From contig NZ_JAEINN010000003.1 of assembly GCF_016342405.1 (NCBI RefSeq), positions 186,001-250,000 of the forward strand: a stretch of DNA of 64,000 nucleotides, written 5' to 3'. The notes beneath the pieces are model-generated. The model made no database searches. It was not told the DNA's origin and saw nothing but the letters and a program-made list of their open reading frames with translations. The DNA is from Maridesulfovibrio ferrireducens (GTDB lineage: Bacteria; Desulfobacterota; Desulfovibrionia; Desulfovibrionales; Desulfovibrionaceae). The stretch's first letter is position 1. The number at the start of each line of letters is the position of its first letter. Of this stretch, positions 5,047-30,362 are shown one piece after another. The position numbers were made by a program, and so were the translations under genes.

Positions 5047-5931
5047 TTGGAAAGCAAAGATCAGAAAAAAGCATATATTTACGGACTTGCCGCAGTACTG
5101 ATCTGGTCTACGGTTGCATCCGCTTTTAAAATTGCTCTTTCATACATGGACCCGTTGCAACTGCTTTTCTACGCAGTTGTATTTTCCACATTGACCTTGC
5201 TGATTCTGCTGATAGTACAAGGAAAAATCGGGCAGGTCGCACAGATGAGTATGCCAAACATACTTAAATGTGCTCTGCCCGGAATATTAAATCCGTTCCT
5301 TTATTATATTGTCCTCTTCAAAGCTTATGATCTGCTTCCCGCTCAGGAGGCACAACCCCTCAACTACACTTGGGCTATTACCTTATCTCTGCTTTCTATC
5401 CCTTTACTTGGTCAAAAACTTAATGCCCGTGAATTTATCGCCATCTTCACAAGCTATCTGGGTGTTGTCGTCATCTCTACGCACGGCAACCTGCTGGACA
5501 TTCAGTTCAGTAATGGATTCGGTGTATTTCTGGCTCTTTTCAGCACCATCATCTGGGCTTTATACTGGATTTACAACACTAAGAGTAAAACCGATCCTCT
5601 AATTGAGCTTTTCCTAAATTTTTGCCTCGGATTACCGCTTGTAACAATTGCGATGCTGATATTTTCCGGGCCACCGCCATTTGAGCTGCCTGCCGTACTT
5701 TCTGCCGCCTATGTTGGACTCTTTGAAATGGGCATAACTTTCGCGCTATGGCTGAAAGCTCTCAAGCTTACTGAAAAAACAGCTAAAATCAGCAACTTAA
5801 TATTCCTCTCCCCTTTTCTATCTTTAATACTTATTCATTTTATTTTGGGCGAAGAAATTTTGCCTTCCACTCTGGTGGGACTTCTTTTTATAGTTGGCGG
5901 AAATATTATTCAACAAACCGGGAAAAAATAA
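5047..5931 (+). CDS. EamA/DMT family inner-membrane transporter
   Basis: A 294-residue, very hydrophobic protein with about ten predicted membrane helices arranged as two EamA repeats, the layout of drug/metabolite transporters (RhaT, YdcZ and PecM relatives). The first helix, GLAAVLIWSTVASAFKIAL, carries the family pattern. The second repeat starts near FGVFLALFSTIIWALYWIYN. Substrates of this family (amino acids, metabolites, drugs) cannot be read from sequence. The start is a TTG at 5047; AAGGA ends 11 bases upstream, a long spacing, so the start is less sure than the frame. A hairpin follows the stop within 20 bases. Confidence 0.88.
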   Translation: MESKDQKKAYIYGLAAVLIWSTVASAFKIALSYMDPLQLLFYAVVFSTLTLLILLIVQGKIGQVAQMSMPNILKCALPGILNPFLYYIVLFKAYDLLPAQEAQPLNYTWAITLSLLSIPLLGQKLNAREFIAIFTSYLGVVVISTHGNLLDIQFSNGFGVFLALFSTIIWALYWIYNTKSKTDPLIELFLNFCLGLPLVTIAMLIFSGPPPFELPAVLSAAYVGLFEMGITFALWLKALKLTEKTAKISNLIFLSPFLSLILIHFILGEEILPSTLVGLLFIVGGNIIQQTGKK

Positions 5932-5933
5932 TT

Positions 5934-6076
5934 AAAAAGCTCTAAACGCACGAAAGACCGGGATGGAGGAATCCCGGTCTTACGTGCTTAAGGAGTGATG
6001 ATAAGGAATGAAGACTGTATATTATCGAGCTTGAGGCAAACAACTTGGGGGATGCAGGCTGCCTCGCTCAGGTTAC
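5934..6076 (-). ncRNA. Candidate sigma-54-dependent small RNA with C/U-rich loops
   Basis: A very good -24/-12 promoter (6086-6103) reads leftward from about 6076 into DNA that has no minus-strand ORF and no AUG before the end of the EamA gene. The predicted RNA of ~140 nt can fold into two hairpins. Stem 1 pairs GAGC and GAGGCA (minus-strand reading of 6058-6067) with UGCCUC-AA-GCUC (6027-6038), and its loop holds CAUCCCCCAAG. Stem 2 (5948-5987) pairs GCACG-U-AAGACCGGGAU with its complement around a UCCUCC loop, followed 10 nt later by five U (5934-5938). The linker also holds CACUCCUUAA and CAUUCCUUAUC. Exposed UCCUCC and CUCC stretches could base-pair with Shine-Dalgarno sequences. All pairings were worked out by eye. 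The 3' hairpin may also end EamA transcription on the plus strand. Confidence 0.5.
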
Positions 6077-6085
6077 TAAGCATAT

Positions 6086-6103
6086 AGCATCAAGCGTGCC
6101 AAA
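6086..6103 (-). promoter_or_regulatory. Sigma-54 (-24/-12) promoter reading leftward
   Basis: Read on the minus strand the sequence is TTTGGCACGCTTGATGCT. It matches the sigma-54 consensus TTGGCACG-N4-TTGCW at 12 of 13 defined positions, with GG and GC ten bases apart as required. Start of transcription is expected near 6076. Nothing protein-coding lies downstream on this strand before the convergent EamA gene. Confidence 0.7.
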
Positions 6104-6145
6104 CAATATAATCAACTAATTAAGTATGTTATAAAGAAGCCCAAT

Positions 6146-6191
6146 TATGTGCACACATGATTTGCACACAAAGTTTGCACTTATGTGCAAA
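6146..6191. promoter_or_regulatory. Palindromic TGTGCA / TTTGCAC sites, likely activator or repressor binding
   Basis: Two dyads sit side by side. TGTGCA (6148-6153) faces TGCACA (6163-6168), and a perfect inverted repeat TTTGCAC-TTAT-GTGCAAA spans 6174-6191. They lie 70-115 bases upstream of the expected start of the minus-strand sigma-54 transcript, the usual position of enhancer-binding-protein sites. They are also 210-250 bases upstream of the plus-strand ribbon-helix-helix gene. Which gene they serve is inference. Confidence 0.5.
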
Positions 6192-6400
6192 AGACGTCAA
6201 AAGAGACTGCACAACCGTTCAGTTTTTTATCCTCTCAAAAAAATACTTTTGTGACAAAAGAGTTAAAATCGTTATCTTCCCTGTACTTTTTACAACTTAT
6301 GCATTATATAATAGGTATAAATTAAATTAATTTGTTTGAACGGTTAATCAAGATCATAAAGACAATTACAAAAAACTAATAACTAATTATTAGGAGAAAA

Positions 6401-29288: not shown

Positions 29289-30362
29289 TTACTCTGTGTT
29301 TCCGACGACGCCTTCGACAAACCAAGACATGCCGAGAAGTTTAGGATCGTCAAGAGTCTGACCGGCAGGAATAATTACTTTGCCAGCCTGATTTTTAAGA
29401 GGACCGACAAAGATTGCATTGTTGCCTGCAACAATTTCAGCTTTGGCAGCATTAACTTTGTCCTGAACATTCTGCGGAACCATAGAACCGAAAGGAGCGA
29501 TATCAACTACGCCCTGATCCATGCCCCACCACAGAGACTCATTACCCTGCCAAACACCGTCACGAACCTGCTCAACAACATTTGTGAAGAGAGGTGCCCA
29601 GTTCCAGACTGCGGCAGTAAGGTGAGATTTAGGAGCAAGTCTAGCCATATCGGAGTTGTAACCGATGGAGTATTTTCCGCGTTCCTGTGCAGCTTCCTGA
29701 GGACCGGGTGAATCCTGATGCTGAGTAATAACATCAGCCCCCATGTCGAGAAGGCTGATAGCTGCGTCTTTTTCAAGAGCAGGGTCATACCAAGTCTTTG
29801 TCCATACAACACGAACAGTAGCTTTAGGATTCACAGCGCGAGCACCGAGGGTGAATGCGTTGATTCCGCGAATTACTTCGGGAATCGGGAAAGCCGCAAC
29901 ATAACCGATGATGTTGCTTTTGCTCATCATACCGGCAACCATACCTGTGAGGTAACGAGCCTGATACATGCGGCCGAAATAGTTGGTCATATTAGGAGTA
30001 GTCTTGAATCCTGAGCAATGCATGAATGCAACGTTAGGGAACTTCTTGGAAACTTTGACCATAGGGTCCATGTAACCGAAGCTTGTTCCGAAAATGACGT
30101 CGTATCCTTTGCGTGCGAAGTTAAGAACTACGCGCTCGGAGTCTGTGCCTTCAGCAACGGACTCAACAAAAGAAGATTCAACATAAGGAAGTTTATCAAT
30201 AGCAAGACGGCCCTGATCCTGAGCATATGAATAGCCTGCATCAGCAACAGGAGAAATGTAGACAAAGCCAACTTTGACTTTTTTCTTGGCATCGGCAAAA
30301 GCAACAGTTGCCATCATTACAGACATTGCAGCAACGATGACCATGATCATTAACTTACGCAT
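29289..30362 (-). CDS. BMP/PnrA-type periplasmic substrate-binding protein
   Basis: A 357-residue binding protein for the ABC transporter. MRKLMIMVIVAAMSVMMATVAFA is a cleavable signal peptide with AFA-DA at the cleavage site and no lipobox, so it is a free periplasmic protein rather than a lipoprotein. KVGFVYISPVADAGYSYAQDQG and FGTSFGYMDPM are the BMP/PnrA (purine nucleoside receptor) motifs. ATG 30362 is chosen for its GGAG upstream; a 40-codon upstream extension would put a hydrophobic non-signal stretch in front. First gene of the transporter operon. Confidence 0.93.
   Translation of the reverse strand: MRKLMIMVIVAAMSVMMATVAFADAKKKVKVGFVYISPVADAGYSYAQDQGRLAIDKLPYVESSFVESVAEGTDSERVVLNFARKGYDVIFGTSFGYMDPMVKVSKKFPNVAFMHCSGFKTTPNMTNYFGRMYQARYLTGMVAGMMSKSNIIGYVAAFPIPEVIRGINAFTLGARAVNPKATVRVVWTKTWYDPALEKDAAISLLDMGADVITQHQDSPGPQEAAQERGKYSIGYNSDMARLAPKSHLTAAVWNWAPLFTNVVEQVRDGVWQGNESLWWGMDQGVVDIAPFGSMVPQNVQDKVNAAKAEIVAGNNAIFVGPLKNQAGKVIIPAGQTLDDPKLLGMSWFVEGVVGNTE

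Follow-up and report, generated by a model that had tools for sequence, protein, structure and literature searches.

A predicted sigma-54-dependent small RNA with anti-Shine-Dalgarno segments in Maridesulfovibrio, probably under a ZraR-type regulator

The window analysed here is a 64,000-nt stretch of the Maridesulfovibrio ferrireducens genome (contig NZ_JAEINN010000003.1, positions 186,001 to 250,000), and all coordinates below are counted from its first letter. Near its beginning, a transporter gene on the plus strand converges on a minus-strand locus in which an enhancer, a promoter and a predicted small RNA follow one another:

6149–6212, minus strand: enhancer (UAS) cluster of six GTGCA/TGCAC half-sites, one overlapping GTGCAC being scored as two; the sole such cluster in the window
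6190–6175, minus strand: palindrome TTGCAC-N4-GTGCAA within the enhancer cluster, read from the sequence
6086–6103, minus strand: sigma-54 -24/-12 promoter TTTGGCACGCTTGATGCT, read from the sequence; pairwise identity 0.90 over 17 genomes
5934–6075, minus strand: predicted small RNA of ~140 nt, its start placed by promoter spacing and its end by the terminator and T-run
6027–6069, minus strand: 5′ hairpin with the C-rich loop CAUCCCCC at 6054–6047, from the fold of its own sequence
5989–6018, minus strand: unpaired C/U-rich linker with the anti-Shine-Dalgarno (anti-SD) stretch ACUCCUU at 5996–5990; pairwise identity 0.90 over 17 genomes
5948–5987, minus strand: terminator-like hairpin with a CCUCC loop at 5969–5965, from the fold and from changes on both sides of its pairs
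5934–5938, minus strand: T-run 3′ of the hairpin, read from the sequence
5047–5931, plus strand: convergent EamA-type transporter gene (PF00892, E 7.7e-37), a neighbour outside the RNA

A sequence-only reading of this DNA had proposed a minus-strand -24/-12 match followed by about 140 bases free of AUG, a 16-bp hairpin with one mismatch and a U-run ten bases further on, and C/U-rich loops and linker, and the closer analysis bears these observations out. The promoter at 6103–6086 has the GG-N10-GC spacing of the sigma-54 consensus, which puts the best estimate of the RNA start at 6075 ± 2. The hairpin at 5987–5948 consists of 16 pairs and one U-U mismatch, and the T-run at 5938–5934 begins ~10 bases past it, so that it is offset in the genome studied here; in a sister clade, a T-rich tail directly abuts the terminator stem. 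UCCUCC, CAUCCCCC, ACUCC and UUCC are all present in the loops and linker, and the fold of 5920–6078 lies at z -6.9 relative to shuffles. The lack of an ATG holds for this genome, and six of 17 genus members do contain one.

Taken alone, the promoter match is weak, no more than chance-like: five -24/-12 sites with at most one mismatch are found in the window against 2.19 expected, and at least five appeared in 4 of 100 shuffles. What lifts the locus above chance is that it is kept in all 17 genus genomes, that its hairpins covary and that its half-site cluster is the only one in 64 kb. An Rfam comparison, which the sequence-only reading had suggested, gave no match up to E 5 within 5900–6250, hence none to the Qrr family, and on 11 relative loci it returned tRNA only.

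When 199 genomes of the family, ours among them, were searched at the DNA level, the locus turned up in 15, every one from our genus, of which 16 members had been sampled. From these 15 sequences we trained a covariance model, R1, of the linker and terminator (the 3′ part of the RNA). Run on 348 genomes of the order, R1 scored 79 to 101 bits in each of the 17 genus members, 15 of which had supplied its training rows; the other two, G327 and G048, are new. Outside the genus, R1 matched 17 genomes, all at ≤32.5 bits. Thirteen of these 17 outside loci were inspected and contained neither the linker (≤7 mismatches) nor the palindrome (≤1 mismatch), and they were taken as chance terminators; several of the thirteen hold one-mismatch promoter-like sites. 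As judged by R1 across the 348 genomes, the RNA sequence itself is detected in its own genus only.

Conservation is unevenly distributed along the locus. Over the 17 genomes, pairwise identity is 0.91 in the enhancer palindrome and 0.90 in both the promoter, with 11 of 18 columns invariant, and the 30-nt linker, with 17 of 30 invariant; it is 0.80 in the hairpin core, 0.61 in the rest of the enhancer, 0.55 from the start to the linker and 0.46 in the spacer between enhancer and promoter. CCTCCA is present in the terminator hairpin of 17 of 17 sequences. In an alignment of 15 genus sequences, 14 of them distinct, pairing holds in 99.0% of cells and 7 of the 14 pairs vary on both sides, values that are flattered by the structure having been derived from the same alignment on which it was scored. 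Both hairpins carry compensatory changes, with both-side changes in 3 of 4 counted pairs of the 5′ hairpin and in 4 of 10 of the terminator. Three measures, namely paired cells, cells with both sides altered and the covariation score, are higher than in any of 500 shuffles or any slid control. Two others are no outliers: 26 of 500 shuffles reached the count of pairs altered on both sides, and 499 of 500 reached the count of pair types. The sequence-only reading had named conservation of the promoter and hairpins in relatives beforehand as the observation on which it could fail, and had proposed covariance modelling; both features recur in 17 of 17 genus genomes, and R1 recovers every one of them.

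The terminator stem also speaks to the strand. Over 17 sequences, its cells comprise 166 Watson-Crick, 4 G-U, 0 A-C and 17 other combinations. The four wobble cells, which amount to about three events, are without exception G-U in a minus-strand transcript, whereas a plus-strand one would have A-C in their place; this is the pattern that transcription of the minus strand would leave. This argues against a reading in which the element acts on the plus strand, for instance as a CsrA-binding RNA or as the 3′ end of the transporter mRNA, for which a GGAGG-loop hairpin (UGGAGG in the loop) and the GGA motifs AAGGAGU, AAGGAAU and GGGGGAU could be cited. Since promoter and enhancer are oriented for minus-strand transcription in all 17 genomes, and no T-run comes past the hairpin on the plus strand, we regard this reading as very improbable. 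A short protein with a rare start codon appears at least as improbable: a TTG-started frame of 33 codons does lie in our own RNA, and a start-like codon (TTG, GTG or ATG) is found at transcript position 18 in 9 of 17 genomes, but those nine frames run from 14 to >43 codons, mostly without an SD-like sequence upstream, our own genome has no start at position 18, and conservation sits in the hairpins and linker.

The enhancer links the RNA to a second locus. All 140-nt windows with at least four half-sites in the 64 kb fall inside 6041–6302, and every one of the 17 genus genomes has 4 to 8 half-sites in the 160 nt preceding the promoter. The exact palindrome occurs once in the genome, with a reversed control of 0; when two mismatches are permitted it is not special, at 121 occurrences against 68 for the reversed control. 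The composite pattern GTGCA-N3-12-GTGCA-N50-80-TGGCAC-N6-TGC, the second of two that we used, is found at two places in our own genome. One is the RNA described here and the other a gene whose product is ZraP-like and whose promoter is of the same -24/-12 type, accompanied by five half-sites. The operon behind it encodes the ZraP-like protein, a DUF4405 membrane protein, a sensor kinase and a response regulator with a Sigma54_activat domain and GAFTGA motif; a GAFTGA-type response regulator adjoins zraP in 5 of 5 genus stretches inspected. The DUF4405 protein, encoded between zraP and the kinase (L127:7220-8101), may be an additional sensor component.

For the ZraP-like protein, homology to ZraP is clear, with matches to PF13801 (E 6e-14) and to the zinc resistance-associated protein of PDB entry 3lay (E 1.7e-10); against NCBIfam ZraP it reaches E 3.5e-13 and 50 bits, below the cut-off of 200. 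Of the NCBIfam models, AtoC gives the response regulator its highest score (458.7 bits), with NtrC second and ZraR third (395.3 bits); for the kinase, AtoS (231.1) comes before ZraS (226.3). All of these scores lie below their cut-offs; we call the regulator ZraR-type because it shares an operon with ZraP, not from this ranking. Every one of the 17 genus genomes has a PF13801 match, in 16 of them above the cut-off. Of the 29 PF13801 loci of the genus, 23 have the promoter and at least two half-sites before a frame of >120 codons, some of these 23 overlapping owing to neighbouring genes; the six without that layout are L113, L114, L121, L123, L125 and L126. Elsewhere in our own genome, two more -24/-12 promoters (L019, L021) precede frames that by eye read like ammonium transporters. 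A further promoter, TTTGGCACGCGAGTTGC (L020, contig 12 near 41371), is followed ~60-90 nt on by a G+C hairpin and T-run, and by eye it marks a possible second sigma-54 small RNA before a NUDIX-like frame, without a GTGCA cluster.

Since half-sites and promoter type are common to the RNA and the zraP operon, a ZraR-type regulator responding to metal or envelope stress is the likely activator, and the enhancer of the RNA would most simply be that of the zraP operon's own regulator. The same RNA could instead answer to another sigma-54 activator, such as an ortholog of D. vulgaris DVU1419, to which Table 1 of PMC4641369 assigns an 'ncRNA upstream of DVU3282' together with envelope stress response. 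We consider this unlikely, as the zraP operon, where the common half-sites recur, brings a sigma-54 regulator of its own.

Searching the 348 genomes of the order for TGCAC-N4-GTGCA-N65-95-TGGCAC-N6-TGC, the first composite pattern, gave matches in 39 genomes of 11 genera, including 17 of 17 in our own genus, with 0 in the reversed control; the second pattern gave matches in 89 genomes of 16 genera, and its reversed control in 2 genomes, with one match each in G029 and G334. The loci examined contain 128 distinct composite sites, a count that leaves out five of the second pattern (one in G213, four in g29; genera are numbered here, g1 being our own). Fifty-six of them precede a ZraP-like frame, as called by an iterated profile that was seeded with 16 genus proteins and leans to inclusion. 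Grouped by hand, the remaining 72 comprise 16 sites at the own-genus RNA (L007, also an own-genus RNA, lacks the exact composite patterns), 10 at a second RNA in g29, 20 at a transcript in g5, 8 at a C-rich stretch in g38, one each in g35, g13 and g19, and 15 before other genes or a truncated ZraP-like frame (L254) or due to chance. A model of the g29 RNA, R2, matched 11 of 15 g29 genomes at ≥105 bits (10 being training rows), the next best genome reaching 36.1 bits, and gave no strong match in our own genus, where the best was 24.4 bits in G327; homology between the g29 RNA and the own-genus RNA finds no support in their sequences.

These transcripts share an excess of CCTCC/CTCCT. Against an expectation from dinucleotide shuffles (140 nt per site, 300 nt for g5 and g38), the observed and expected numbers per RNA are 2.07 and 0.68 in g1 (15 genus RNAs, without L002 and L007), 6.10 and 1.29 in g29, 4.05 and 1.46 in g5, 2.38 and 1.53 in g38, 4 and 0.89 in g35, 3 and 0.51 in g13, and 3 and 0.18 in g19; at 52 of the 56 ZraP sites, 0.27 were observed and 0.34 expected. 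The nonamer CCUCCUCCC is found in 10 of 10 g29 RNAs (L060-L069) and in the g19 RNA, and in 0 of the 16 own-genus RNAs examined, with G105 left out. Support from g5 and g38 is weaker, because g5 may be coding and the g38 excess is slight. In g5, a frame of 62-67 codons opens one or two bases past the predicted start in 14 of 20 transcripts, so the transcript may be a leaderless small protein, an RNA or both. In L187, L242, L252, L276 and other g5 loci, the frame stands beside hairpins and CCTCC, and in L245 the hairpin pattern is kept (by eye) and the frame has an early stop. In another family of the order, a composite (L198, in G206) lies upstream of a frame that by eye resembles an HtrA/DegQ-type protease, which fits envelope stress, and G213 has a similar site.

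How might such an RNA act? A search for Hfq (PF17209) detected it in 0 of 17 genus genomes, and the same search was positive in 5 of 14 control genomes. Against 66 ORF starts of the window, mechanically picked as frames of ≥150 codons, the mean duplex energy of the linker is -12.35 kcal/mol, compared with -11.18 (sd 0.48) kcal/mol for shuffled linkers, 0 of 60 being as low. The best single duplex is ordinary, being equalled by 12 of 60 shuffled linkers. Such pairing is consistent with a sequence of broadly anti-SD type. Duplexes with the four starts of the zra operon are weak (-6.4 to -10.8 kcal/mol).

Neither the seed search in 17 genomes nor the duplexes with window ORFs yielded a convincing single target. 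The exact 12-mer seed AAGGAGTGATGA occurs at 27 places in the 17 genomes, 14 of them the RNA locus, and none is a plausible conserved start site. Six of the 13 other places represent one stretch in six genomes, where the nearest following ATG/GTG lies 16 nt past AAGGAG; it was rejected as a start site, and its frame looks by eye like the back of a conserved gene. One lead in the window is a gene at 29289–30362 on the minus strand, by eye BmpA-type lipoprotein-like, whose start TTTTTAAGGAGTGGATAATG pairs with the linker. Its AAGGAGTGGATAATG is kept in two orthologs, one from a very close relative (2 of 15 stretches hold the gene), which is too little support for a target.

Because these searches gave no demonstrable target, and because linker conservation spans 30 nt, long for a seed, we weighed a reading in which the RNA is real and sigma-54-driven, but acts by binding or titrating a protein or as a sponge for another RNA, the linker being conserved for that purpose. 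This is an unlikely alternative: linker and loop match the anti-SD sequence, and RNAs that show no recognisable sequence kinship behind like promoters, in g29 (10 loci) and in g35, g13 and g19 (one each), are also enriched in CCTCC/CTCCT.

The best-supported reading remains that of a sigma-54-dependent small RNA with C/U-rich anti-SD segments, as the sequence-only reading had it. Extended by the present analysis, it becomes a small RNA gene under a ZraR-type regulator whose product would block ribosome-binding sites without Hfq, to which we assign a probability of roughly 0.68. Starting from the conserved promoter, enhancer and RNA structure, the enhancer and promoter common to the zraP operon, and an Hfq that is not detected, we infer transcription, regulator binding, the stress signal, repression and target identity along the following route. 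Metal or envelope stress would be sensed by a ZraS-like kinase, and the phosphorylated sigma-54 response regulator of ZraR type would bind the half-sites at 6149–6212 and activate sigma-54 RNA polymerase at 6103–6086. The resulting ~140-nt RNA, with its 3′ end at the hairpin, would expose the linker (ACUCCUU, UUCC) and the CCUCC hairpin loop, which resemble the anti-SD tail of 16S rRNA, and by pairing with ribosome-binding sites of mRNAs it would lower translation in an Hfq-independent manner. The RNA would then be the RNA arm of a regulon of which ZraP is the protein arm.

More tentatively, and with somewhat less than even confidence, we propose a two-arm ZraR-type regulon across the Desulfovibrionaceae, comprising the ZraP chaperone and an Hfq-independent anti-SD RNA, in which the promoter and anti-SD logic would be kept and the RNA itself replaced or diverged between genera, some RNAs reaching the alphaproteobacterial CCUCCUCCC; such an RNA may brake many ribosome-binding sites at once under envelope stress. 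If anti-SD RNAs did arise repeatedly behind like promoters, specificity without Hfq becomes a directly testable question. For sulfate reducers, where small-RNA control is little explored, the locus offers a defined predicted stress RNA with a promoter, a likely regulator and a proposed mode of action.

Each component has a precedent. Vibrio Qrr RNAs are transcribed from sigma-54 promoters with a response-regulator enhancer (LuxO) and work with Hfq; the promoter and enhancer arrangement is alike here, whereas our locus has no Rfam match and Hfq was not detected in the 17 genus genomes. The sequence-only reading had considered its combination of features new to the Desulfovibrionaceae, which is too wide a claim, as papers of 2011 and 2015 had already described ncRNAs under sigma-54 control in Desulfovibrio (PMC3333781, PMC4641369). 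The D. vulgaris response regulator DVU0679 targets Dv_sRNA2 (PMC3333781), and Kazakov et al. describe four D. vulgaris ncRNAs, one under DVU1419 with envelope stress; for DVU3381, the targets given there comprise its own operon and DVU3384 but no ncRNA (PMC4641369). Dv_sRNA2 and the three others resemble the present RNA in combining a sigma-54 promoter and regulator enhancer with a small RNA in the same order; the available text of both sources names neither a sequence nor an anti-SD element nor a mechanism for them.

In E. coli, ZraR targets zraP, zraSR and mgtA, and the ZraPSR regulon shares with our operon a ZraP homolog, a sensor kinase and a sigma-54 response regulator (PMC7657598); the terms 'sRNA' and 'small RNA' are absent from the main text of that paper. 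The available text of a computational ncRNA survey of Oleidesulfovibrio alaskensis (PMC11124144) contains nothing on sigma-54 or zra. Among the matches listed in the open-licence literature (main texts), no ZraR-controlled small RNA is described, and none of them presents a ZraR-type regulon that unites such an RNA and regulator with an anti-SD feature.

In enterics, sigma-E provides the Hfq-associated RNA arms of the envelope-stress response, MicA, RybB and MicL (PMC6737893, in its available text), which are alike by function only and depend on another sigma factor; here a sigma-54 two-component system appears to provide such an arm, with Hfq not detected. Parallels for the proposed mode of action come from alphaproteobacteria, where alpha-r14/NfeR1 and cuckoo (CcsR-like) RNAs carry anti-SD motifs in unpaired regions, as here, but with CCUCCUCCC and a sigma-70 or RpoH promoter in place of ACUCCUU/CCUCC and sigma-54 (PMC10746234 and PMC10253847, as far as their available text goes). 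NfeR1 is described as Hfq-independent, has three anti-SD motifs and is reported to occlude the ntrB ribosome-binding site (PMC10746234), a precedent indicating that an Hfq-independent anti-SD mechanism can work. The g29 RNAs, with CCUCCUCCC in 10 of 10, bear the very nonamer of these alphaproteobacterial anti-SD RNAs.
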